DNA from: Verrucomicrobiia bacterium | GTDB lineage: Bacteria; Omnitrophota; Omnitrophia; Omnitrophales; Aquincolibacteriaceae | Length of the DNA stretch: 36,843 nucleotides | NCBI GenBank assembly: GCA_035495615.1 | Contig: DATJFP010000085.1 | Span: 1-36,843, forward strand | Reading direction: 5' to 3' | Shown: piece by piece, positions 2,725 to 31,400 of the stretch | Layout of the letters: every line of letters begins with the position of its first letter | Position numbering within the stretch: position 1 is the first letter of the stretch | Translations under genes and position numbers: made by a program | Notes under the pieces: generated by a model | Seen by the model: only the letters and a program-made list of their open reading frames with translations | Database searches by the model: none | What the model was told of the DNA's origin: nothing

Positions 2725-3383
2725 GCCGGGCCTCCCTGCGGCACAAACTTCCGGGCCAGCCTGCGCCCGAGCGCGGCCGGCACCTGCACCAGCACCGCGA
2801 AGGATTCGCCCTGCCAGGACTTGAAAATCTTTTTTAAGCGGACGATTTCATCCATTTCAAAGTATCCCGATTTTTTCAAAAGACGCAGGGCTTCGGCTCC
2901 CGCTTTTCTTTCCGTCATGAAACGCACCGCCGCGCGGATCCACAAGAGGCCGAAAAAAACGCTGAGCAATTTTCCCGCCGCGGCCGGAACGCCCGGCACC
3001 ATGGACAAAACAAGCGCCGCCCAGGCCATGGCCGTGGCCGGAACTTCCCAGAACGGATTCGAGAAAAACGATTCGGGCGATCCCAGGCTTCCGGGAAAAC
3101 GCGCCCAGAGAGCGGCTTCCCGCGCGACCGCGGCAATTTCCCAGAGGCTCACGCCTTCATACAGCGGCGCAGAGAGGGTCATTTTTTTCTCGGCGGGGTC
3201 CCGGGCCGCGCGGCCGCGTTCGATGGACGTCGCGGGATAATCACATTCGTCCAGAATGAAACGCGCGGCCTCGCTTCCGGTGACGCGCCGGCGGTTCAAA
3301 TGCGTGCCGTAGCGGAGAAAAGCCACCCGCTGGACAAGGCAGGCCATGACCGAGGCCAGGAGAAACAAAAGCGCGGCTGTCAA
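2721..3383 (-). CDS. YugP-like (Zn_peptidase_2-type) membrane protein with degenerate metal site
   Basis: The 220-residue protein starts with a hydrophobic segment (about residues 2-22) and has two more around 112-150. Residues 34-100 align by eye with YugP-type neutral zinc metallopeptidases: TGSEAARFILDECDY corresponds to their TGAEVARRILDENG helix, and TLSAPLYEGVSLWEIAAVAREAALWA to their strand and catalytic helix. Where the family has H-E-x-x-H, this protein has R88-E89-A-A-L92, so the zinc ligands are absent. I infer a pseudo-enzyme. The TTG start at 3383 has GGAGG just upstream; the gene follows rluD by ten bases and overlaps the prenyltransferase gene. Function unknown. The family likeness is from memory of the motif, not from a search. 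Confidence 0.72.
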   Translation of the reverse strand: MTAALLFLLASVMACLVQRVAFLRYGTHLNRRRVTGSEAARFILDECDYPATSIERGRAARDPAEKKMTLSAPLYEGVSLWEIAAVAREAALWARFPGSLGSPESFFSNPFWEVPATAMAWAALVLSMVPGVPAAAGKLLSVFFGLLWIRAAVRFMTERKAGAEALRLLKKSGYFEMDEIVRLKKIFKSWQGESFAVLVQVPAALGRRLARKFVPQGGPA

Positions 3384-3393
3384 AATTCCTCCG

Positions 3394-4311
3394 CTATTCT
3401 TTCAAGGATTCGAGGCGCGTCAAAAGATTTCTCATGTCCGCCGGCAAATCCGATTCGAAATAAAGCCGTTCATGCGTGGTCGGATGCCGGAATCCCAGCG
3501 CCCTGGCGTGCAGCGCCTGCCGGTTGATCCACGGCGACGCCACGCCGTACAGAATGTCGCCCAGCACGGGATGGCCGAGATACGACATGTGCACGCGGAT
3601 CTGATGCGTCCTCCCGGTCTTGGGATAGACTTCCAGCAGCGTGGCCCTGTCGTAACGCTTCAGAACCTTGAACAGCGTGGCCGCGTCTTTTCCGCCTGAA
3701 GGCTTCACGATGACTTTTTTGCGGTTCAAAAAAGCGCGGCCCACGGGTTCTTCGCAAATGCCTTCCTCGTGCTGCACCGTGCCCCGCACGATAGCCTGGT
3801 AAACGCGGTCGATGGAATGATCCTTGAACTGACGCGCGAGAAAACGGTGGGCCCTGTCGTTCTTGGCCACGACCATGATGCCGGACGTGTCCTTGTCCAG
3901 GCGGTGCACGATGCCCGGGCGCATGGGATTGGCGCAGCGGGCCAGCCCGTGCGCGTGAAAGAGCAGCGCGTTGACCAGCGTGTGCTCGAGGTTGCCGTGG
4001 GCCGGATGCACGACCATGCCCGCGGGCTTGTTGACGACGATCAGCTCCTCGTCTTCGTAGACGATCTCGACCGGAATGTCTTCGGCGCGAGCGGTCATGT
4101 CCGGCTTCAAATCCCAGGACACTTCCACCTGGTCCGCGATTTTGACTTTGTAATGCGGGCTGACTTCTCTGCCCTGGACCTGCACGCGCCCTTCTTCGAT
4201 GAGCTTTTTGATCTGCGAGCGGGAAAAGCGCTCGGCCATGACGGTCGCCAGAAAAATGTCCAGCCGCGACCCTTCGTATTCCTCTTCGACGGTGATCTGC
4301 TCGCGGTCCAT
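3394..4311 (-). CDS. rluD: RluD-type 23S rRNA pseudouridine synthase (RluA family)
   Basis: Converts uridines in 23S rRNA to pseudouridine. The 305-residue product has an N-terminal S4 RNA-binding domain (about residues 15-80, SRLDIFLA through SRSQIKKLIEEGRVQVQG) and a catalytic domain with HRLDKDTSGIMVVAKN, in which D139 is the catalytic aspartate. PKTGRTHQIRVHM near the C-terminus is also typical. The frame is open to 4437, but that extension lies inside lgt. The ATG at 4311 begins MDREQITVEEEYEG, two bases after the lgt stop, and has AAGGAAAAG upstream, so I take it as the start. RluD is favoured by full length plus the S4 domain; the exact target uridines are not shown by sequence. Confidence 0.92.
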   Translation of the reverse strand: MDREQITVEEEYEGSRLDIFLATVMAERFSRSQIKKLIEEGRVQVQGREVSPHYKVKIADQVEVSWDLKPDMTARAEDIPVEIVYEDEELIVVNKPAGMVVHPAHGNLEHTLVNALLFHAHGLARCANPMRPGIVHRLDKDTSGIMVVAKNDRAHRFLARQFKDHSIDRVYQAIVRGTVQHEEGICEEPVGRAFLNRKKVIVKPSGGKDAATLFKVLKRYDRATLLEVYPKTGRTHQIRVHMSYLGHPVLGDILYGVASPWINRQALHARALGFRHPTTHERLYFESDLPADMRNLLTRLESLKE

Positions 4312-14238: not shown

Positions 14239-16440
14239 TTAGGCTGCGGAGTCGAAGAGGGCTTGGACTTGGTGCAGGAGCTCAGCATGCCGGGTAAGCA
14301 GGTCGGCCGCGCTGAGGATCACTTGAGGCAAGGGCTCCGGTGAATCCAGTTCGCCGAGGGCGGCGAGAAGAGCGCTCGCCTCCTTGAGGCGGCTGCCGGA
14401 ACCGTCGGGCAAATCTTCATGGACGAAAAGGGTTTCGGGCCTTGTTTCAGACGGCCACGACTGACGGATTTGGCCGAGCCGTCCGGCATCGTCGGCATAA
14501 ACCAGGAAGCGGGATTCTCCGGCAGTTTGGAACCGGGAAAGCCCCGCGTCGCCCGGAGCCAGGACGAGCAGATTGACACCCTTGGCCGTATCCGCTTTTT
14601 CGGCCCGCCGGCGCAGGATTTCCACGCGCAGCGCGTTTTCGAGATCGCGCCGGTCCCCTTCCGCGCCGGGCGCGGCTAATACGATCATGGCCTGCGGATG
14701 CAAGGCCGCATAATCGGCCAGCACCTGAAGCTCCGCTTCTTCCGCCCGCGGCATGCGGCCGTACAAGCGGAGGATCCGCGCGGGCGAAGTCTCCGCGGCG
14801 CCGTTTGCGGCAAGCAGGGACGCGGGCGAAACCGCGCGCCACACCACGGCGTCTTTTTCGTCGGGCGAAAGCCCGTCGAGCACGAGTTGTTCGAGATAGC
14901 GGCGGTAAGCGGCGCCGGTGTCCCTCACGCCCGCAATGCCTTGCGCGCCGGCGGCGGCGAATGCGAATTTCAAGGCGCGTCCGCCGAATGGCGCGGCCAG
15001 GGCAAAGGCGCGTTCTTCATCAATCGCGATCGTCCCGCGCGAGTTCAACAGATCGCGCAGCTCGGAATGAGCTTCACTGAATTCCTCGTGCGTGGAAATG
15101 CGCGGCAGCCCGCGCTGGTAGAGCACGATCGAGCCGTCTGATGCGATCCGCGGCGCCAGCCACTTGGGCGTTCCGCGCACGTAATTGAGCCCGGACGTTT
15201 CCACGAGCGTGCCGAAATCCTTGCCGCTTTTTTCGCCGCGCACCTGCCCGCGGGAATCGATCGAGACCGACACCTCGCTCCTGAGATCCGCCATCGAATC
15301 AAGGCCCGGGCCGCCTGAAGCGGGAAATTCCGCGGCCGCGACATGATAGACTTCCTTTCCGTTTTCGCGGCGCTCGAGTTTCAGCGTCAGCACGACGAGC
15401 GAATCCAGCGGCTCTCCGAGATTCGGGCCCCCTTCGATATCCACTTGCGCGTTCCATCCCCGGCGGGGATCTTTGATGAGTCCCGCTTTGCCGATGACCG
15501 CCGCGCCGTAAAAACCGTGGGTCTTGATCAGGTCCTCGTAATCGCTCCAGCGCCCGTGAATGGCCGGCATCTGATCGGCAAAAGTCTTGCGGTAAAGCGC
15601 GAGAAGAGGCAAATGCGGCGTTCCTGAATTGAGGAATTCCGCCCGCTCGCGCGAGGCCCGGCCTACGAGCCAGTTCAGGGCAGTCTCGCCTACGCCATGG
15701 CCCGCGTATCGTTTATACATGGGAGAACCGGGCTGGCCCAGCGGATAAAAATTGAAAAGCCGGTAGACTTTGCGCTCCCCGGCGCGGGGAAGATTTTCCG
15801 TCCACGAAAAGCTGTCCGCTTTTTCCCCGGCGACCGTGACCTGCGCGGAATAAGTCTGCGCGCCGTCGGCAAGCGAACCGTGATGCACGCGCAGCTCGAC
15901 CTCTTCCTGGCCCGCCAAATTCCCGAGAAAAACATGCGTCTCCCCGTCGGCGGCATAGCTGTAACGTTCCCATACGGAGCCGGAATAGTCCGCGACTTCC
16001 GTGAGCCGTCCCTGGGCATCGTATTTCGTCACACGGCCCGAGGCCAGATTGTCGGCAAAGTTCGCGAGCGAGAAAAAGAAATCGCGGTCGTCCGGATTCA
16101 GCGGGCGCTTGTCCTGCGAAAGCGTCCGGAATTCCTGCTGCGCGTCGTCCCATTCATAATGGAAGCGTCCCGCTTCGCTTTCGATCCGGATTTTTTTCGG
16201 CTCCAGGATAACGTCGATCTGCGCCTTATCGCCCGCCTTTTGCAGCCCCGTAAAATGAGCGCGGCTTGTCCCGCCCTTCATGGCTTCGCGAATGCCGCGC
16301 GCCATGGCAGCTTCGGGCCTGATACCGGGCAAGTCCCGGGGGAAACGCTCTCCCGCAATCCACAAGTCGCCGTCCGGGCCGCTCGCCAGGCGGATCGTGA
16401 TGGAAACGCGGACGCCGCCGTTTTCCTGGAACACCTTGTA
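14239..16440 (-). other. C-terminal region of the giant protein, mostly unassigned
   Basis: Residues about 5024-5756. It contains a stretch reminiscent of a YD repeat (GRVTKYDAQGRLTEVADYSG). A piece, KRYAGHGVGETALNWLVG through LLALYRKTF near residue 5275, resembles the C-terminal half of a GNAT acetyltransferase. A basic/acidic helical tail follows. I assign no function. Confidence 0.4.
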
Positions 16441-19400
16441 ATCTTCTTCGGGAGGTCTGAGCTCCGAGCTTCGAGCGAGGAGAGCCTTCTCAGTGCCGGA
16501 CTCAAGAGAGTCCGGCCGGAGCTCCGCACGACGAGTGCGGAGGGTAGTCTCGGTGACGGGCTCAAGGGAGCCCGTCCGGAGCTCCGCACGACGACGGGCT
16601 TTTATGCTTTTCACCAAAAGGAAAGTCTGGAAGATGCTCTGGATCGTCTCGTCACTCGCCTGCGGCCGGGCGGGATCAAAAACTTCCGTGTGATCCCTTC
16701 CCGTCATGACGAAGACGTATTTCTTGCTGCGGGCCGCGTCCGAAGCAAGGACATGCTCGAAATATTTCCGGCTCACGGCATTGGAAATTTGCGTGGCGCG
16801 CTCCAGGTATTCTTCATGCGTCCGGTAATAAGATTCCCCGTCGTTCGTCACCCAGTCGAAAAGCTCTTTCATCCGGGCATTCAGCGCCTGGGGATCCAGA
16901 CCGAAAGCGGTGGCCGCGGAAACGACTTCCGGCAGCGGCGTCTCGAAAGACACTTCCTTGCCCGTCATGGCAAAACGGTCCAGCAGGTTCATGCCGGCCA
17001 TGTCCCGCAGAACGTCCTGCGCGTTTTCATAACCCGCCGCAACCGCGCGCAGGATGGGCGGCGCGTCGATGGGGGCAATTGGATCCTCCACGACGATCCC
17101 GTTCGGGCGGGCATGGTCCACGGCGGCCTTGAGTTCCGGAGTCTCATTGATCGCCGACGCCGGCCAATCCCAGCCTTCGATGAGGAAAAGCCACTCGCCG
17201 GGATTTTCGATGCGGGGCAGGATCTCCTTCTGGAACTTTTCGAGCATGCGCCGGTCTCCGGCATAACCGTGCATGCCGCCCATCGCGAGCACGCGATGCG
17301 CGCCCCATTCATATTCGTTCAAGACGGGCTCGCCCCCGCCTTCGGCGGAGCGCAGCTCAGACAATTGAAAGCGCGCGGCGTAATCGCCGGTTTCCGCGAA
17401 CAACGCCGCGTGTCCGGCTTGGAACAGCGCCTTCAGGCCGGGCACGATCTTTTCCATTTCCGGCCAGGTGAGGAACACCATGCGCTGGGCCATGTCGCGG
17501 CGCGGGCCGTATTTGGCCGTCACGATCTTCTGCGTGATGTCATAGCGCTCTCTCCGGACGGCCATGAGGTTCTCTTTCACGTTCGTATCGAACGGTAATC
17601 TTTCCACCTCAGGCAGGGCAAGATTGAACATGGGAACAAGGAAAGGCAGCGCGGGCTCGGCGTTTTCGATCAACCGGATGTAATTCCCCATGCTGGTGTG
17701 CATGACTTTCGCAGGATCGCGCAGCCCCTTCGCCGCCCAATCCGCTTCCGTCATGCTGAGGACTTGCGCAAGGATGCCGCGCAGCCTTTCGGCGGGAACG
17801 GCTCGGGAAGTTTCGCTGCCGTTCTCGTCAAAATAATGAAGGCCTTTGAGCATTCTTCCCATGTATTCCAGGACGGCTTCGCGCGGCGTCTTCCAGAAGA
17901 TTCCGCCCCGCTCGGTGTTTTGCTCTGCTTTGTAGCTGGCTTTGAAGTCGTGCAGGATGGGATCGAGCATGAGGGCCAGGCCCCACAGCATGAGATCGTC
18001 CTGCGCCGCGGCCGGCCGCGTGCCCTTAAATCGCGGAGAAAGCAGCGGCTCGCTCGATTTTCGCAGGTCCTGCTGTTCGATCCATTCCGCGAGGAATCTT
18101 CTTGCCGCGCCGGCGAGGATTTCATTGTCTGCCGGACGCACACCGCCGGGATCCATGTGATTGCCGAACCAGCGGATGTGCAGGCTCATGGCCACGCCCA
18201 GGATCCAGTCCCGGAGAACGCGTTCCTGCAGGCTGCCGCTTGCGAGGAGGGCCAGTCTTTCCGTCTGCGCGACTTGATCGAGGGGCGAAACATCCATCTG
18301 AATGATTTTTGTGGTCAGATCGAAAACGCGGTCCCAGCCGCGCTTTCTCCAGTAGGCGTGGAGCTGCCGCCCGATTTCCTGCCGGCTCAACTCCGGAGGC
18401 GGCGTGGTAATCCAGAAACGCACCGCGGGTTCCAGCCAAATCTGCCAGGCGGCTTGCGGTTCCCGGACATCATCCATGAGCGCAAGGATTTTGCGGAGAT
18501 GCTTTTGCGCGTCCCGGGGATGATCTTCGAGATAGTCCAGCATTCGCAGCTCGGTTTTGTTGAAATCGATCCGGAAAAAATAATTCGAGGCCGGAAGCAT
18601 GGCTGCGAAGTTGAAAACACCCTGGAACGGCTTCTCATGGAGGAGCGGCCTCTTCTTTTCGGGGAATTTCGCGTCGAAAAGTTTGTTTACGTTTTTTCTT
18701 TCCCGGTCCACCACGGCATAGCCGCCCGTGGGTTTCAGCAGCCCGGCAATATTATCCATCCATTCCGCGGCATCGCCTTGGACTGAGGGGCCTCCGGACA
18801 GATCCACGAGCGTGACCAGGTCCATTTTTCCCGCAAGGCCCAGGCGCTTCACGTCCAGCGCACCGAATTCGCTTTCGATCGTCTGAATCTGAAAGTCGAG
18901 CTTCAGTCCGGCCGCGTCCCGATTTTTCAAAACGTCGCGCACTTCCTCCCAATCGCGTACGGCTTCCTTGATTCTCAGCGGGTCCATTTCCACAAACGTC
19001 ACTTCCCTGCCCAGAAGCGCGAGAAGAAGCGGCAGCATGCGCATGCCGCTTCCGGCCACCAGCGCGTGCTGGATGGGATGCTTGAGGATTTCGTCCATCA
19101 TGGCCTTTGAAAAATTCAGGTCGTCGATGCCGAAGCCCCGCGTTTCCTTGATAAAAGGAATTTCTTTGAGAAGCGCGTAAGCCTTTTCCAGCAACGCGGC
19201 ATCGGTTTCAGTTCGCAGCTCGGTCCGCCAGGAGAGTCCCCGGTAAAATCTTGCGTAAGCGCCGATCAGACCTTCCCCGGCGAAGCCTGCGGCGCGCGCG
19301 TCGTGGAGCGGGATTCCGGCTTCGCGGGCAAACGCGGCAAGATGCCCGGCCGAATGCGCGTAAAGCCGGCCCTCTTTGGCCAATTTCAGCCGCACATGCG

Positions 19401-22400
19401 CGTTGATCATTTCTTCCATGGCATCGCGTCCCGCGATCTGGAAAGCCGCCCAGTTGGCCGCGATCTCGCGCGCTTCTTCCGGCCCGGAAGCGCCCGCGTC
19501 CATGAGCGCCAGCAGCCCGTGGCCGATTTCGTGGGCCGCGGAGCCGAGGCCGTGGACGTCGTTGGCTTCCTCCAGCAGGTTGCGCAGGTTCAGGACGATG
19601 CGCTGACGGTCCTCGTCCCAGCGCATGGGATTGTCCGCGTCGTCGTCGATGGAAAAAACGATGCCTTCCGCCTGAAGCCTTCCGTTGATGCCGGGATGCT
19701 CGCGCATCTTTTCGTTCAGCGCCGCGATGAAGCCGCCGTACTTTTGTTTCAATTCCCAGAGGCGCGTCAGGGTTTTGCGGAACGCCTCGGGCGCGGCCAG
19801 CGCGTCCCCGAGAAAAGCGTAGCCGCGGTCGTGATTGTTGAGCCGGGTGAGCTCATCGATGTCGCCGTAATCGAAGAAGCCCGCCTCGATCCATTCCCGC
19901 AGCAAGTCCCGGAATGTCCCGATCCGGACGTCCGCCGCGCTCAGGTGATATTTGGCCAGCACCTCGGGATTGATCGGCTTGAGCTCCGCCAGCGCCGCGG
20001 CCAGCGTCCTTTCCAGAGGCTCCGGCAAGGAACGGAGCTCGGAACGTCCGGTTCCGAGAGTTTTCTCCGCAACGAGCTCATGGGAGCTCGTGCGGAGCTC
20101 GGCATGCTGCTGCGCGGGCCGTTCGAACGCGGCGGGCTGGAAATAAAAGAGCAGATGAAGCGGATGCGGCGCGACGGGCGGCTGCCCCGTCAGCTGCGCA
20201 AGCCGCGCATAGGCGGGCTGAGAACTCTTCATCATGCGCAGGTGCAGGAGCGGCAGCGAGAGTTTCTGGCCGGGCAGCGTGTGCCAGCTCCCCGCGCCTT
20301 TGGCGATGACCGCGACGCCGTCTTCCCAGGCCTCCATGAAAGCGTCGTGCAGGCCGCCTTTGGACAAATCCGCGCCGAGCATCGTGGAGCCGTCGGTGAT
20401 AACCGAAAGCCGGCCGGATTCCAGATACGGCGCGAGTAGCGGATTGCCCCTCAGGCCGGCCGCGGCTTCGTCTTCGGTGACGTCGTCGCGGATCACGCCG
20501 TTTTTCGCCACGACCGCCACTTTGAAGCCCTGGCGCAGCAGCCACTCGATCACGAGCTGGTCCATGACGAATTCGCCGTGATTGTCCAGGAAGTAGAGCA
20601 CGGTCTTTTTCTCCGCGGCTTGAAGCTGCCGGAAAAAGGATTCAAAGCCTTCTTTCCCGAGCGCCAGATTTTCCGATGTGATGCGTCCGAATACTTCCGC
20701 CATCTGGCCCGCAAGGTCCAGACCCGCGTTGATCCCCGCTTTTTTCATGGCGTCGGGATGCGACGGATCGATCAGGTTGCCGATGCCCGCATACAAAAGC
20801 GCGGTCCAAAGCTGCTCTTTCGGATCCGCGGACTGGAACACGCGCTCGCGCAGCGCCGGGTAAACGTTCAGGAAAGCTTTGTCGAGCTCCTGCTTGTAGG
20901 AAGCATAGGCGTCGGGAACGCCGGAATACCGGTGCACGATCTGCTGGGCCACGGCTTCGAATTGCAGCAAGGTCAGCTTGTCGGCCTCGGGATGATGTTC
21001 GAGGACGTCCAGCAGGGCCAGCACGGTCTCGCGCTCGGGCGCGGCCGCACCGGTTTTGTCGAGATGCTGTTTGGCCTGGAGGATCTTTCCCGGTTTGGAA
21101 TCTCCCGGCGGCGTCCCGCTGCCGTCCCAAGGCGTGTCGCCGATGCGCGCGTATCCGGGCATGTAGTCCCGGGCCGCTTCCTCCGGCGCGTTGCCCCGTT
21201 TGATTTCCTTGATCATCGCGTCCACGGTCTCGCGCGCGTCCGGGAAAGTCCTGCTGAAAAGATGCGTGACCAGATTTCTTTCCAGAGACGATTCGGCGCC
21301 GGCTTGCGGAATGCCGGGAACGAAGGTTCCGTCGAAAGAGTCGAAGCGCCCCGCAAAATGGCGGTAACCTTCGGCCTTCAAAACCTCATCGAAGGCGTCG
21401 AGGATCGGGCGATGGTCTTTTTCCGACTGCGTCTCGCCTGCCGGAAATTGAAGGACGAATTCCACGCCCGGCGTGCTGTCACGCAGCCAGCGCCGGATCA
21501 CACCGGTCCAGACTTTGCGCCATCCATCGTACCAGGCCTGATAATGAACGTCATCGCGCCGGTCCGCGTCCGGCGTTTTCAAAGTCTCCGGCACAAGGTC
21601 CGCGGGCGCATCACTGAATTTCATGTACGCGCCGAAATTTTCCAGGTAAATCGTGCCCGGCTTCACGGGCACCGTGTCGAACGTGAAAAGATTATCGATG
21701 ACGTGCCTCATGTCCTGTTCGCGGCCGAGGTATTCGCGCAGGCCGTTCATGACTCCGGACGTAAATTCATCGTTGTCCACGGTCACGATCTTGCGGCCGC
21801 TGTTCAGGATCTGCGTCAGGTACGGCATGGGATCATGGGCGAGATAAAGAATGGGCGCCGCGTTCGCGCCGGCGTCCGCGTTTTTCATGGCGGGCGTGGA
21901 GCGCTTACCCACGAGACCGCCGCCTTTAAGCTGCAGGTAGGCGTAAACGCGTCCCGATAAGCGGGAGAACGCGACGCCCTCGGCCGAACGCGCGTAGCGA
22001 ATGAGCTGGAAATATTGTTCGGGCCGTCCCGGTAAATCCTCGCCGCGGTTGCCCGCCTGATACGTGCGGCGCAGCGCGTCGTAAGCGGCCTGATACGCGC
22101 CTTCGGGATTTTCCCGGTCGTTGGCCAGGTTGAATTCATGCAGCAGGACTGAGGCGATCGTGGAGAACGGCGTCTTGCCGATCACGCCGACACGGGAAAA
22201 ATGAGAAACCAGCTCGGTATCGCGGCTTTGATAGAGCGCATGGATGCGCTCGTCAATCATCTGATAGTAACGTTCCGTTTCCATGGTACGGAGTTCAGGC
22301 CGTTCGAATTCCTGCGCGATATGGCTGTTGCGCCAGTGCGTGATAGGCCTCACTTGCGGCGGAGTTTTCTGCATCCAGCCCCGCGCTTCGAGCCACAGCC

Positions 22401-25400
22401 TCACCTTCATCCAGAACACGTCCCAAAGCGATCCGCGCATCAGCGCGTCCAGCATCGGCCCCAGGCTGACCTTTCCGTTCGTGACGAAAATATGCCGCGG
22501 CCTTTTGTAGAAAAAACGCTTGAAGGAATCCATCATCCCCGGAGAGCTCACCGTAATGCCGGTAACGTTCATGGCCTCGCTCAAGTGAGTCAAGCCGGTA
22601 TGCACGGTAAGCACGGCGTCCGCGAGTGAAAGCGCGGCCGCGAGTTTCACGTGGTCATTCGGGCCGAAGGAAACCAGCTTGGAGAGATACGGCTCCCCCA
22701 GATCAGGGGATTCCAGGATTTCGCGCCGGAGCATCGCGTAAAGTTCCTGCGCGTACCCAAACGGCGGCTCGTCGTCGCCGGCTTGCGCGGGCAAATGACC
22801 TTCGTTGATGACGATGAGTCCCGGAAAATGCCGGATCATGTCTTTGAGGATGTCGGCTAGATCGGGCAGGTTGCGCCACCTTCCGGTTGTCCCTCCCCGG
22901 ACGAACGGATTCACATACAAAATCGGGACGTCGGGAATTTCCCCGCGCCCGATGAGACCCTGGCTGACAAGGTGCTGCTTGATTTTTTCCGCCAGCAGCG
23001 CCCGCTCCCCTTTCACGTTCGCGCTCAGCCGATCTTCGGTAATGACCGGCGGCCGCGAAGGCAGTTCGCGCAGGCCGAGCGTTTTCAGAAGCCGAACGCG
23101 TTCGCCGTAGTCCGGCAATTCATGATTAAAGGCGGGCAGCTTCAGCTCCTCGCTTCCGGTCCGGAGCGCGATGCCGTACTGGTTGCTGGAAAGCACGGGA
23201 TACTGAGTCCCCCACGGGATCAGGGACGTAAAACGGTCGGAGGCATTGATGACGATGAGATCGCTCCGGCCGCGGCTCTCCCGCAGCAATTCCCGGATCC
23301 GGTTCTCGTCCGCGACTTCCGCAGGAACGCCGAGATCGAGGATTTCCAAATACCCGCGCGGGATGATGACTTTCTCGAGCGCGGGGAAAAGTTTTTTCAG
23401 CTCCAGGAAAGGCAGCGACTGGACCGTGGGATGGCTGATGGAGCCTTCATCCACGAGAAATACGGCTTCGCGGAAACGGGCCCGCGCTCCGGCGTTCAAA
23501 ACATTTCGGGCGCTGCGCTGCGGCGGATTCGCGGTAGCGCGGAGCTCAGCCCTGTCTTCTTCCGGGTCTTCGTCCACCCAGCGTTCCCGGATGATCTCTT
23601 CGAGCTTTTCGAGTTTCTGCAGCGCTTCGTAATAATGACCGGATTCGCCGATCAGGACGAGGCGGGAATTCGGATTGATCTCTGCGGGCGTCAGCGCCTT
23701 GACGCGGTTGCGCAAGGCCTCGGTCCTCACGCGCACGTCGTGAATCGTGTCGAGAATGCCTCCCACGCCGCGGGTCCAGTCCTGTTCCTCCAGGATCATG
23801 CCATGGGTGAGCAGGACCCCATGATGGAGTTCTTCGGCCTCGCGTTCCAGAGCGCGCGATTTGTCCGTCGGTTCCGCGGGCGGCGTCCGCAGCGTGAATC
23901 CCAGCTGCAGGTGCTTATGCCCGTTTTCCAGATGATAAGAAACCGGATACAAGGCCGCGTTGATCAAAGCGGGCAGGCTCTTTCCTCTCATCGCCTCGAC
24001 GAAATCCGAGAGAAGCGTGTCGATGTCCCACATGAGCATCAAATCGGGCGAGGCCTGCCGCAGCAGATCCGCGCTTTGAGCGACGCGCTCCCACACGATG
24101 GCCAGCTGGTTGGAAGCGGTCATCCAGTTTCCGGCGTCGATTCTGTTCCGCGCGTTGTTCAAGGCCGCGAGCGCCATCTCCAGGTCTTCTTCCAGGCCGG
24201 GCCATTGCCTCGAAAAGGGGCTGCCCCGCAATTTCTCCACGATCGGCCGGAGTTTTGCTTCCAACATCGCGATGTCCTGCTTCACGTCCCGCATTTCGTC
24301 CCCGGCCTCGGCGCGGAGTTCCGATTTGCTTTTCAGCAGCTCCGTGAGAAAAATAAAAAATTCCCCGCGGCCTGACGCGGCAATCACCTGGTCGCGCAGC
24401 TTGCCGACCAGCATCGGACCTTTCGGGATTTTGGGATTGTCGAGGATGAGCCGAAGCGCGGCTTCAAGCGGCGGCGTGACATTGTCCAGGCGGCTGACCT
24501 GCTTGATGAGCGCGTCGAAGGTTTCTTTGGCGTAGCTTTCGGCGAGCGTGTTGATAAGACCGGCCGCGAACATGGCCCGCTCTCCCGGCCGGAGAAGCTC
24601 ATGCGCCGCCTCATCCAGCACGAACGGCCTTTTTTTACCGGACCGGGCCATGGCCAGCAATTTTTCTCGGGCGTAATCCGCGGCCGCCGCCAGGTCAAAC
24701 GTGGCCATCGTGATGTAATCGTGCGCGGCTTTGCCGGGCCGCTGCACCTCTTCCTCGGCAAAGTCATGGAGCGCCTTGTCGCGTGCTTCAGTCAATTTCT
24801 GCACGGCGATGGGCGTCAAAAGTTCCACCCAGCCCGGATGCGGCAGATGCAATTCCCTCATCTCGATGTCGGCCATGCCCGTGCGCGACAGCCGCATCAC
24901 CGGATGCCCCACGGCTTCCATCATGGCTTTCACCTGATGGTACTTGCCTTCTTTCAAATACAGGCTCAGCGTCGTGGTGCCGTCCGTGGGATTGACCTGG
25001 ATATTTTCGACGCGCGCGGGTTTGGTGTGGTACTTGATCCGTGCTTCGTGGTGGTCTTTCGTGTCGATCTCGACGCCGGTCCTGAGCCTGTCGGCTTCTT
25101 CCGGCGTCAGCCGGCCCTTCACCGTCACGTAATAACGCTTTTCGACGTGGCCTGTCGGCATCACGATGCTCAGCATGGAAGGATCGTCGGTGAGGATCAT
25201 CAAGCCGTCCACGTCATAGTCCAGCCTTCCGAGCGCGATGTAGTCCGCGGGATTGCGCCCGCTCTTTTCCGCGAAGATATCGTAGATCGTCTTGCGGTCC
25301 CCATCTTCATCGAAACGTGTCGACAAGACGAACCGCGGCTTGAACAATGCGAAGTAGTGATAGGCCGGCGCCTGGGCCGCCGCGTTTTCCGTGCTGCGCA

Positions 25401-28400
25401 ATTCGGCTTTGGGCGCTTCCCGCGTCACGAAAGAAAGGGAAACTCCATTGCCGCCTCCCGGCAGCATCGCCATGTTGAGCTTCGACAATCTCGAGGCCAG
25501 CGCGGCGCGCATGGCCGCCAGGTCATCCTGCCGCGTGTCGGAGGTGGCGGACCAATCCGGAAGCCCGGTTTCCACGGCGCGGTCCGTGAGACGGGCATCA
25601 CCATTTGCCGCATTAAAAACATGAATCTCGGGATGGCCTGTTTTTTCTTCCCGATGGAAGAACACATAAAGCGGCAGGTCGAGATCAAGCCGGTTCCCGC
25701 GCCGGGTCGCATCTTTCAAAAGCCCAAGCAGGAGCGTCATCAACTGGCCTTCGTCCGTCAAAGCAACAACCTGCTCCGGGCCGGCCATGGCCTGCAATTT
25801 TTTCGCGAAGGCCGGCACCAGGATCCGGCGGAACAAATCGCCCGCGAGATAAGGCGACGGAAGGTCCTCGAGATTCCGGCGCTGAGTTTCGTCCACCGCG
25901 GCTGAGGCGTCGTCCGCCAGCGCGTCGTATTTGTAGCTTGCAAGCCCGCGCAGCCGGAACAGGACATCGCCGCGGCCGGATTCCGCCACGTCTTTTTCGA
26001 TGCCGCCGGGCTCGCGGAGGAAATTGACGTCGAGCTCGCGGACCGCGTTTTGAGGAAGCCTGAGATGAGCGAGGAGCCGCGTCTCGAACGCGTCCCGCGC
26101 CGCGGCGGCTTTGCCGGCATGCCGGACTTCCCGCACGATTTGTTCCAGAACCAGGCTCGGGGATTTACGCGCGAGAAAAAGGTAATTGCCCGCTTTTTCC
26201 GTGTGGAGATCAGGATGATGTTTCAACGCGGCCTCCAGGCGATCTTTGTCGAAAGCGCGCGTGTCCAAAAGAATCAGGCCGTGATGGGAAAGCGCTTTTT
26301 CCATTTGGGCGAGCATGCCCAGGTAGCTCACTTCCTCCCCTTTGTGAAGGAGCTGCGGGACCGGCGGATAATCGGGCGACATCACGTAGCTCAGGAAAAG
26401 CCGCGTGCTTCCTTCTTTCAGCGGCATGTACCCATGCCAGGGCATGATGTAAAGGTAAGGCGCGTGCCTGACGCGCTTGGAAAGCGACGGGCTGATGCCG
26501 ACGGCCTGGCGTGAGCCGCGCTGGCGAAGCCATTCCACAAATGCCGCGTACGGCGCCTGTCCCAAATCCACGACCGGCTGATCCACCATCCAGGCGAGAA
26601 TGGCTTCGGTCGTGAGATCCTCCGCCTCTGCCAAATGCTTTGAGGCCGCGTAATCTTTTAGGATGCCCGCGAAGGTCGCAAAGCCCGGCGGCACCTGCGA
26701 CGGATCCGTGAGCCACGGGAATTCGGGCAAGCCTGGACTTTGATCGGTCCGGAGTTCTGTGCGCATGCTCGAAGCGCGGAGCTCGGGCCGGGCTCCTGTG
26801 ACCCCGGCACTGAGAATACCCTCCGCGCTCGAAGCGCGGAGCTCAGGCTTCAGCTTCTCAAGGACTTCGGCCAGGATTCCGTATACGGTTCCACGGCCGG
26901 AAGTCGCCAGGACCCGCTGCTGAATGTCTCCGAGAATTTGCCTGGCGTTGCTCTTGGAATTCAACCCGATGAGCAGCAGGACCGATTTCAATTTGTCCGG
27001 GACAGGACTGGTGTTGAGGGCGCTCACGACCGCATGGAGGACCTCGTGCGGATGGTCCGCCGAGATGGCGTTCAAGAGGCTGAACACGAACGATTGCCGC
27101 AAGCCGCTGCTGCGGTCCAGATCCCAGATCAATTCTCTAATGACGTAAGGACGTTTTTTCTCGGAAGCCGCCATGGCCAGCAGCTTTTCCCGGGAAAAAT
27201 CGGCGATGCTTCGCAGGTCGAATTCCGAAACGCTGATGTAATGATGGGCGGCCTTCCCGGGTTTTTCATCTTCGAGCTGCGCAAGCGCGTGCAGGGCGTT
27301 CTGCCGGGCGGCCATAAGCTTCCCCAAAGACGCCGGCGTAAGCGGCATGACCCGGCCCGGCGATAGATCTTCGTCCTCGAGCTCGATGCCGCCGATTCCG
27401 AGGCGGGTCAGATAGATGACCTTGTGCCCCACGGCCTCCAGCATCAGCTTCACCTGGTGGTACTTGCCTTCGCTGATGTACAGGTGCAGCACGCTGGTCT
27501 TCGGGCCGGGGGAGACATTTTCGACGCGTGCCGGCCGGGTGTGATAAGTCAGGGGCTTGTTAAACTGGTCCTTGGTCTCGATGTCCACGCCCTCTTCAAG
27601 CCTGTGGACTTGTTCGGGAGTGATGGTGCCTTCCACGGTAACGTAGTAGTGCTTTTCCACGTGGCCCACCGGCATCACAATACTGACCATGGAAGGGTCG
27701 TTGGTCAGGACCACGAGGCCGTCCACGTCCGCGTCCAGTCTTCCCAGCGTAATATAATCCAACGGGTTCAGGTGCGTGGCCTGCGCGAACAGGTCGTAAA
27801 TGGTTCGCCGCCGAAGCCTGCTGTTGTCCGAGCGGGTTGAGATCGCGCCCTGGGGCTTGTACATCGCAAAATACTGAAAAGGCGCGGCGCCCGTTTGTCC
27901 CCGAGGACCCGGTGCCTGCGGTACCCGCGCCGGAACGGCGGCTTTTTTCGGCGTGGACGCAACCAGTTCGCCCGGCTGCGACTGGACGGCCTCGATCTGG
28001 CCGCGCTCGAGAGCATGGAGCGCTTCTTCTTCGGACTTACCGGCGACGACCACCATCACGCGCGCGGCGCCCGCATCGAGAAGCACGCGGCGCGCTTCGT
28101 CCGCCGTGAAGCCTGTCGTCCAGTTGTCGTCAAAAAGAACGACCGTCTTCCCGCGGATCGCCTCAATTTCTTCAGGCGGCACTTCGAAGTTTCCTGCGGC
28201 ATTCAGGGCGCGCTTCACCGCCGAAGGCGTCCGCGTTTCACCGTCGAACTGCGACTTTTGCTTTTCGCGGGCCTCGATTTTTCTGAGGATCTTCCGGTTG
28301 ATGGCGGGAACCCACTTGTCGCCGAGGGTTTTCCGGAGCGTCTCGATCAGCCATCCCACGTATGCGTTTTGTTCTTCGTACGGGGCGGGCACGACCACGT

Positions 28401-31400
28401 CCGCGTCATGCCAGGGCACCTCCTCCGCGGGAGCGCGCAGAAGAGGAATGAGTTTCGAAATCGGCCCCGGATTCTTGTTCACCGTCAATTGTTTCATGAG
28501 GCTGCTGAAGGGATCGCCGGCATGCCGCGGATCGCTGCTCGGATAGTACGGCGCCAGGGCCCAGTTGGACGCTTTCCACGCGGCGTCATACTCCTCCGCG
28601 GGCATGAAGACGCGAAGCCCCTGCCCGAGAAGCGACGTGCGGTAATTGCGGTCTTCCGCGTCTTTCAAAGTGTGATAGGTTTCCAGAACGGGAAGCAGCC
28701 CGGGAGCGCCGTCAAAGCGCCACGCGGGCTCTCCGCCCTGATCACGGCTGAAAGATTTCAGCATGGCCGAGCGGAGCAGATCTTCGCCGGTACGCTCGAA
28801 GGCATGGATCACCAGATCGCGGATTGTTTCAAAGCGCGTATCCTGTTTGAATTTGCCGTACGGCAGGACTTCCATGAGAAAAGACAGCTGGGCCTTGGGA
28901 GCCAGGTCGCTTTTCCTCGGATGGCGCCGCAGAAAAACTTCATGCAGGATTTCACCGTAAACTTCCGCGTGTTCAGGCTGCTCGAAACGGGCGAGAAAGC
29001 CGTCAAAGGCCGCCAGCAGCGCGGGCATGTTTTCCGCGGAAACCGCCGCCCGTTCCGTCGAACGCAGTTCCGCTTTTTTTCCGGTCGGTCCGACCGGAGT
29101 TTCCAAGCCCGTCTTTTTCCGCGCGATGAAATAATTCAGACGCGGCCCGAATGGCGCTTCGGAAACTTTGAACTGGCCTCTGTCGAAGGAGCGGAAGCCG
29201 AGCGGCGCGAGCAGGTCCTGCATGTAAGCGGCCAGAAGCTGGAAGAAGTTCGGCTCGATGGCCTCCGTGCGCCAGGCGCGGTTCTGCCGGTAAAGCTCCG
29301 CGGCCAGGGCGCGGTACCGGCTTTCCTTGCGGAAGCGCGCGGCATCGGCCGCGCTCAAAGCGCCCCATTGGAAGGCGATCGGCGTTCCCGCATCGTCCAG
29401 AAAGCGCGGGACGAAAATTTTGCCGCGGATTCCCAGCCGCCGGCGTTCGCGTTCCACGGCATTCAACAGCGCGGGACTCGCATAGCTCGGGAAGTCGCCC
29501 ATGGCGATGAGCGGCTGGCCCGGCTTGAGCAGCCGCGCGGTTTCGGCCAGCACGGCATCAAGATTGTCCAGGATGTCGAAAAATTCCAGGCCCGTGACTG
29601 CGCCGAACGAGCTGTCCGCGAAAGGCGTTTTCTCGGCACGGGAAGAAACCTGGGCCTTGCCGGTCCGGAAATTCCCATTGTCGAGCGTCACCCACCCCCG
29701 GCTCAAGTCCGCCGGACTCAGCTGCTTCAAGGTCTCATGCGCGCCGGCCCCTAATTCCAGGATGGACGTCCCCTCTTCGAGGCCGGCCCGCGCAAAGACC
29801 TGGTAAACCGCGCTCTGGTAACCCCGGCGCTCCTGCATGCGCTTGCGGTGAAGCCACTCCGAATCCTGGCTCCAGTCTTTGGCTTTGTAACTCACGCGCA
29901 GCTCCGCGCGCTGCAAAAATTTCTGCCGGTCCGCAAGCCAAGCCGAGGACACGGGCGTGTTCAGCCCGGCCTGCCGTAAGGCCTCGCGGAAACGCCGCAG
30001 TTCGCCCGCATAAAAGGCGCGGTCGCCCAGGCCCGCGGGATGCGCGAATTCCGGTTTCTCCAGATGGGAGGCCGCGGTCATGGCCGCGAGGTAAGAAGCG
30101 CTGCTGATCTCGCCGCTGATCCGGGGCTGGATCGCGGCGTAGCCCATGCCGCCGCCGCGGAAGACGCGTGCCATGCCGTCCTGGTGAAAACCGCCGGTCA
30201 CGAGGATCGCGACCTTCTGGTTGCGGATTTTCATTTCGCGCCGGATCTTTTTGTAGAAATAGGCCTCGCGGATTTCCGCGAGATGATAAAACGCGCCGGC
30301 CTGCCGGAATGCCGCGGCCAAAGGCGCGGGCGCGCTTTTGATTTTCTCTTTCGCCTTTTTCCATTCCTCGCGCGTCAGTTCCAGGCTCACGAGCTTTTTG
30401 CGCAGCGCGAGATCCCGGTAGGCGTCCAGGAGCGCGAGATCTTCCTTACCGGCGCGCGCCTTGAACAGCGCGTCGAAAAGCGAGTCGATTTCCGCGAACA
30501 GCGGCCCCGCGCTCATCTCGTTTTCCAGCGATTGCGACGCGGCCCGGTACATGATCTGAGGGTAAGTCTTGAAGCGGAAGCCCTGGGGATGCGCCTTCAC
30601 CAGGAACTGCTCGTAAAATTCGCGCGGCTGTTTCAGGTCTTTGCTGCCGAGCGCTGCGAGAATGTCCGCCGGCAGTTTCTTCGCCGCGAGCCAGGCGCCG
30701 AGTTTTTCTTTTTCCCGCTCCAGCGCTTCGGGATTCTTCCGCTGCTCGAGCTCCTGAAGCATGACGAGCCGCGTCAGCTGCGGCCAGTCGAATTGCGAAA
30801 AGGGATTGGCGAGGTCGAGGTTGAGGATTTTCCGCGCTTCATCGCGGAGGAGGCGGGCCGTGGCCGCCAGGTCGCGCTGCTGCTCCTGGTGCTTCTGCCA
30901 CGCGGTGACGAGCGCTCGGAAATCCGGAGAAAAAATCTTGGACGCGCGCAGGTCCAGCTCGCGTTCCCGCGCGTCGAGAACGGCTTTGCTCCGGTCCAGG
31001 CTGGCCACGACTTTTTTAAAGAGTTTAAATGCAGGGCGATAAAAAACGGGCTGTTCGACGCCAAGGGCCGTGAGTTTGGATTTGGGAAGCGCCAGATCCA
31101 CGCCGGTCAGTTCGCCGGTTTCGGCCAGCATGCGAACCATTTTTTCGTTGGGCTCCTCGCTCGGGAAAAAGCGCAGGTATTCGGGATGCAGGCTCTCGCT
31201 CGCGCCTTCGGCGAACAGCAGCTTGACATGATAGGTCTTTTCCAGGTAACGGATGATCTCTTCGATTTTGAGCGCGGCTTCGGGGCTGCCGTGCGCGGTC
31301 TGGAGATGGAAAATGAACGGCATTTTTTCGCCGCTCGGGAAAAACGAGTCGCCGTAACGGCCGAGCTCGGAAGGAAGCGAGAGTTCGAAGGCAGGAATGT

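Follow-up and report, generated by a model that had tools for sequence, protein, structure and literature searches.

The question raised by the stretch of Omnitrophota DNA analysed here (36,843 nucleotides of contig DATJFP010000085.1, assembly GCA_035495615.1; the window) is how one very long gene can carry four copies of a palindromic unit, in both orientations, and keep its reading frame. The units belong to a real, dispersed family of palindromic DNA, consisting of two hairpins between GAGCTC ends. In at least two Omnitrophota genera the element stands in frame within giant genes, in the linkers between domains, and its ends encode the general inter-domain motif of these giant proteins, [KR]x-E-L-R. 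We consider it likely that each unit is a copy of a palindromic insertion element that is translated with its host gene, colonises the linkers of polyprotein-like giants and is tolerated because both of its ends carry the linker motif.

A two-hairpin element in the window and beyond

The four units occupy three sites, and all are free of stop codons in the frame of a single minus-strand open reading frame (ORF) of 5756 amino acids (aa):

14239..31509, minus strand: giant host ORF, 5756 aa, containing all four units, coding by hexamer score
16459..16524, minus strand: unit A1, 66 nt including both GAGCTC ends; hairpin I 16464-16480, spacer 16481-16495, hairpin II 16496-16515
16519..16584, minus strand: unit A2, in tandem with A1 and sharing a GAGCTC with it; hairpin I 16524-16540, hairpin II 16556-16575
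20035..20100, minus strand: unit B, oriented as A; hairpin I 20040-20056, hairpin II 20072-20091
26779..26844, plus strand: unit C, the reverse of A and B; hairpin II 26788-26807, hairpin I 26823-26839

Each unit consists of GAGCTC, hairpin I, a 15-base spacer, hairpin II, three bases and a closing GAGCTC, with a period of 60 bp. The host ORF contains the Pfam domains Methyltransf_11, PseudoU_synth_2 (twice) and an ARMT1-like domain. The original prediction, made from the letters of the window, had placed 60-bp GAGCTC-bounded units at 16459-16584 (in tandem), 20035-20100 and 26779-26844, and these positions were confirmed; the two-hairpin layout, frame-neutral length and lack of stops that it described all hold in the frame of the gene, as does the Glu-Leu-Arg that it read at each border. 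It erred in orienting unit B with unit C, as both A units and B are alike and C is opposite. With the host gene on the minus strand, and in the orientation of the covariance model described below, units A and B count as sense and unit C as antisense. Its argument from the reading frame stands in so far as the frame is kept, but the uniform phase of the units is weak evidence, since GAGCTC in giant ORFs (here, those of 2000 aa or more) is nearly always read as GAG-CTC (104:1:6 over the three phases, element copies included). Fixed codon phase was thus discounted as evidence by itself.

Folded as single-stranded DNA, the four units gave z-scores of -3.3 to -7.0, and for each of them 0 of 200 shuffles were equally stable. 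A known structured RNA was dropped as the identity of the units, as the window contained no Rfam match, a database that need not hold Rickettsia palindromic elements (RPEs).

We searched for further copies with a GAGCTC-to-GAGCTC pattern, and then with a covariance model built from nine copies. In the genome of the window (G000, 3.16 Mb) the model identified 17 strong copies, spread over nine contigs, together with a few that are decayed; half units of the element also occur. Between two copies in different giant ORFs, one on C3 and one on C26, a single base of 66 is changed. Among 39 relatives, clear copies were found in one other genus only, represented by Candidatus Omnitrophota isolate Zod_Metabat.1447 (G010), and across the phylum matches at E 1e-4 or better were obtained in 8 of 384 genomes, most of them single and weak. 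The G010 version has a 9-base spacer and a period of 54 bp, still a multiple of three, and its stems differ in sequence while retaining their pairing; hairpin I of unit B has the stem sequence class of the G010 element.

Over 21 copies from the two genera, we counted 53 double-sided stem changes, compared to 17.4 +/- 3.6 in shuffles (0 of 500), and 90% of stem cells were paired, against 21-44% with the partners slid, bearing out the covariation of hairpin II that had been proposed from the window. None of the three outcomes that the original prediction had set against itself (no further copies, no covariation, simple local duplication within one gene) was observed, the last being ruled out by the dispersed copies across G000.

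Two further observations concern the form of the element. One copy in G010 (C7, L057:9464-9574) has a palindrome, CCTTCGAC...GTCGAAGG, nested within its hairpin II, with the frame kept. In another genome, G035, contigs C7, C20, C28 and C32 yielded weak two-hairpin matches, mostly in short ORFs, possibly representing an intergenic relative.

Confinement to giant genes and the inter-domain motif

With few exceptions the copies are found within giant ORFs (2,100 to >10,000 aa), in coding-type hexamer contexts, in codon phase 0 and in linkers; the host ORFs on C14, C10 and C63 exceed 10,500, 6,000 and 5,900 aa, respectively. This near-total confinement had been overlooked by the original prediction. 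In G000, 12 of 14 insertion loci are in giant ORFs, whose share of a 289-kb contig sample is about 18% (P ~6e-8, or 1e-4 if the share were 35%). The share in a 204-kb sample of G010 is 3%, yet ORFs of at least 2000 aa contain 11 of the 12 confirmed copies there; the twelfth lies in an ORF, 1236 aa or longer, that is ended by the contig edge. Intergenic DNA and ordinary genes are almost free of copies in both genomes, the weak copies in short ORFs being those of G035.

Regarding the giant genes themselves, the end of C3 and the start of C99 (L042, L051) share 44 identical residues, which suggests one gene of ~9,200 aa split by assembly. The giant ORFs on C10, C14, C49, C63 and C85 have in common a weakly similar N-terminal region of ~500 aa (25-31% identity), without a Pfam match in the pieces scanned.

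Both borders of the unit encode a five-residue R/K-x-E-L-R signature, and the Arg that follows the far GAGCTC comes from the flanking sequence in 17 of 17 G000 copies counted, weak ones included. Hairpins are absent from most motif linkers, and the giants contain dozens of such hairpin-free sites. Within the host gene of the window we identified the following, all on the minus strand:

29896..29910, minus strand: RAELR, hairpin-free
29062..29076, minus strand: KAELR, hairpin-free
26836..26850, minus strand: KPELR, border of unit C, upstream in the direction of the gene
26776..26790, minus strand: RPELR, downstream border of unit C
25396..25410, minus strand: KAELR, 15 aa before the pseudouridine-synthase module
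24313..24327, minus strand: KSELR, a single motif at the paralogous equivalent of the unit C site
23539..23553, minus strand: RAELR, hairpin-free
22288..22302, minus strand: RPELR, hairpin-free
20032..20046, minus strand: RSELR, border of unit B
16576..16590, minus strand: RAELR, border of unit A2
16516..16530, minus strand: RAELR, common to units A1 and A2
16456..16470, minus strand: SSELR, outer border of unit A1
24300..25410, minus strand: motif-bounded pseudouridine-synthase module, whose homologs in relatives are mostly stand-alone ORFs of ~190-280 aa

Motif counts were made on the giant proteins of G000, G010 and a third genus, G014, and in all three the motif peptide supplies the top 4-mer. 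The pattern [KR][PSA]E[LM]R[AST] occurs 71 times in the G000 giants (0.29 expected; 61.9 thousand aa), and twice in the other G000 proteins (0.37 expected; 103.6 thousand aa). In the G010 giants SELR occurs 63 times (1.5 expected) and its full form, RSELR, at 95 sites in 34 thousand aa, close variants counted, with no occurrence of the strict pattern in normal G010 proteins. In the G014 giants the motif count is 17 (0.6 expected) and RSEL is the top 4-mer (18 against 0.6 expected), and the phylum-wide covariance-model search found no match to the hairpin element in this genome. Three randomly sampled element-free giants contained 15 motif sites in 17 thousand aa.

At the DNA level, a pattern for R[SA]ELR exceeds its reversed control in many genomes of the family and order, and in few outside. 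The genome of G014, which has no hairpin element, stands at the top of the phylum sample (234 against 29); in other families outside the order we recorded 30 against 4 (G193), 45 against 26 (G189) and 19 against 3 (G203). Named Omnitrophota loci retrieved through leuS contained no giant ORF, and are hence uninformative on the motif, as are the stretches of G028 and G034 examined, in which giant sequence is scarce.

The motif falls consistently between domains. None of 124 motif sites lies inside a Pfam envelope, where 11.3 were expected. In G010, formyltransferase domains at 624-938 are flanked by motifs at 585 and 950, and an acyltransferase at 3162-3418 by motifs at 3137 and 3455; in G000, an acyl-CoA dehydrogenase begins 30 aa past a motif. 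The AlphaFold model of the pseudouridine-synthase module of the window has low confidence at residues 1-37, 386-400 and 405-407, covering or adjoining the two motifs, and confident folds between these linkers. Two modules were checked for stand-alone status, this one and the G010 formyltransferase module, whose homologs in relatives are likewise mostly stand-alone ORFs of ordinary length. In the window, 24250-25479 and 26830-27888 form tandem-like paralogous modules, 50% identical, each comprising a pseudouridine synthase and a helical domain, with an ELR motif at the end.

In G010, 30 isolated RSELR sites differ from their consensus by ~3 synonymous changes each, and near-misses at the Glu are not above chance. 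Hairpin-free [KR]xELR sites thus have diverse codons and an invariant Glu, are confined to inter-domain positions and are present in the element-free G014, implying that selection at the protein level is involved; that all motifs are DNA scars free of such selection is disfavoured by the invariant Glu with diverse codons. The suggestion, made from the window, that the peptide linker may be a by-product is not supported, as the motif is conserved as protein where there is no hairpin. The Ser codons of the isolated sites are in a ratio of 29 TCN to 1 AGC, which suggests that the motif sites go back to one ancestral DNA sequence and were later held by selection, with a codon-context preference as the alternative.

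The hairpins of the giants are concentrated at the motif. Independently of the model, we counted perfect 8-bp hairpins within 75 nt of a motif; these account for 28 of 52 such hairpins in the G000 giants, on 6.9% of the sequence, and for 33 of 45 in the G010 giants, on 13.1%. Away from motifs, the hairpin density of giants equals that of normal genes. G010 contains several cassettes unrelated in sequence, with RSE[LQ]R-type codons at both ends and lengths of 18, 20, 20, 21, 22, 32, 33 and more codons, a diversity that had been missed from the window; how many distinct families they form was assessed by eye and not by clustering. A second hairpin family in G010 (L058, L191, L192, L193, L195) has CCGAGCAAC/GTTGCTCGG ends that read RSEQR, and a third family often follows it. 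In G010 the ends encode RSELR in a single direction, and 6 of 6 copies are turned accordingly; in G000, with palindromic ends, copies are found in either orientation. That copies with palindromic ends are free in their orientation makes for a clean rule, open to checking.

How copies may spread and persist

The copies may have spread at the DNA level, either copied into linker codons that form a palindromic CGGAGCTCCG-like motif or recombining there. They would persist because the product, a linker motif, a short peptide and a second linker motif, keeps the frame and is tolerated by the protein. Interiors would then decay, and protein-level selection would retain the motif. Several filled and empty sites can be compared. 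The unit C site aligns with a paralogous module of the window that has a single KSELRA; of three copies of a module on C10, two have the element and one a single RPELRA. In a G010 pair, 57 of 60 bases are identical up to the GAG of the motif, and beyond that point a cassette follows in one of the two, an arrangement compatible with recombination at the motif, which a recent duplication interrupted by an insertion could also explain.

Other results weigh against this account of a motif-bounded insertion element. The element-free homologous sites were seen in paralogs at 30-50% identity rather than in orthologs of the same genus. In C99, a paralog of C14 at 36% identity, the motif is absent at the position of the C14 insertion; the motif may therefore arrive with the element instead of being its landing site. 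One strong G000 copy (C78:4593) lies in a 626-aa ORF and in a different phase, and a second copy (C99:44745) is apparently non-coding. The share of giant ORFs was taken from contig starts, and most giants examined were picked for carrying elements. Y1-transposase relatives are present in these genomes; nothing ties them to the element, leaving it with no linked mobilising enzyme, and the Y1 transposase was rejected as the mover. The least certain step is the function of the motif, whose position and conservation would fit proteolytic processing.

As the leading guess, the motif would be a putative recognition or cleavage site, by which the modules of a polyprotein-like chain are separated or handled; if it is cut, an insert with a motif on either side would be lost from the mature modules, or be harmless to them. 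We modestly favour putative cleavage, because normally separate enzymes are joined and inserts between two motifs would then do no harm, and binding or module handling would also fit. In both modules checked, proteins that otherwise stand alone are joined in one ORF, as in polyproteins. The giants may be polyprotein-like chains of modules, possibly subject to cutting, in which a mobile DNA insert is tolerated. The fullest form of this idea, which we hold possible but doubtful, is that the giants of this Omnitrophota order are bacterial polyproteins of dozens of normally separate enzymes, cut by a protease at [KR]x-E-L-R, and that the elements have become adapted to it, with the cut site at both ends and their peptide being removed after translation by host processing, with no intein involved. 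If true, this would amount to a mobile element spliced out at the protein level by its host.

We think it unlikely that the element is selfish RPE-like DNA, found in giants merely since long linkers tolerate it, with the ELR borders as functionless scars. Dispersed palindromes in both orientations, with decayed and half units, are as such DNA would leave them, and the TCN bias of the Ser codons points to a common DNA descent of the motif sites. Intergenic DNA should tolerate copies at least equally, yet it is nearly free of them, and the hairpin-free motif is conserved as protein, codon-diverse and present in the element-free G014.

A role of the hairpins as RNA, acting between domains in the giant mRNA through ribosome pausing or the shielding or division of transcripts, would account for the stem covariation, the low folding energies and the placement exactly between domains. 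We judge it very improbable: the majority of motif linkers are hairpin-free, the hairpin families are unrelated in sequence and differ between genera, the window contains no Rfam match, and palindromic DNA repeats covary anyway, both arms being copied together. That the unit is a protein-level linker module, duplicated along with domains and only incidentally palindromic, fits the copies that lie in duplicated modules, but is extremely improbable given near-identical copies in different giant ORFs, different peptides from the two orientations, and the compensatory stem changes, orientation and covariation having already disfavoured it.

Comparison with known systems

Repetitive extragenic palindromic sequences (REPs) are extragenic, 20-40 bp long and GTAG/CGTC-tagged (PMC3733652). 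The element resembles REPs, bacterial interspersed mosaic elements (BIMEs) and REP-associated tyrosine transposases (RAYTs) as a hairpin DNA repeat of many copies, in genomes with Y1-type transposase relatives; it differs in being intragenic and translated, with 12 of 14 loci in giant ORFs. No GTAG or CGTC tag beside the palindrome is common to the aligned copies. Palindromic amphipathic repeat coding elements (PARCELs) encode amphipathic repeats of 25 residues, which form long tandem arrays of variable number within membrane-targeted proteins (PMC2996958). They too are coding repeats with dyad symmetry, shuffled within genomes, whereas the inserts described here are linkers of 18-22 residues (some longer), present singly or in pairs, those of the main family being 20 or 18 codons long.

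Giant ORFs of Omnitrophota, the same phylum as the hosts studied here, have been reported as long, with few annotated domains and poorly understood function (PMC10066038). The terms linker and repeat are absent from that paper, in which we found no inter-domain motif or coding hairpin cassette described, and a search of the open-access PubMed Central (PMC) literature, with preprints outside its scope, returned no description of the motif system. The conserved motif offers a handle on the organisation of chains of thousands of residues, and predicts cutting or binding at ELR. The cassettes show how selfish DNA can inhabit coding sequence, with ends that translate as the linker signal of the host protein itself.

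The Plasmodium export element (PEXEL) and RxLR host-targeting motifs occur as single N-terminal copies in eukaryotic parasites, and are cleaved in Plasmodium. They are likewise short R-x-...-L motifs in extended regions, and differ from the motif studied here, which has dozens of internal copies between bacterial domains.

The closest parallel is with RPEs and the coding palindromes of Wolbachia and Methanocaldococcus jannaschii, which PMC2996958 summarises as short dispersed palindromic DNA in frame in genes, typically in non-structured segments. A conceptual resemblance to RPEs had been proposed from the window, and is supported by the dispersal, the covariation and the second genus. The element is likewise dispersed (17 strong copies on nine contigs), stem-loop forming, in frame and free of stops, a likeness of concept. 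RPEs are hosted by assorted housekeeping genes, whereas the hosts here are giant multi-domain genes; every border is here a peptide motif independently conserved in the host proteins, and several unrelated cassette families use the same motif. The element is probably a coding palindromic element of the RPE kind, specialised for the linkers of giant modular proteins and bounded by the inter-domain motif of its hosts.

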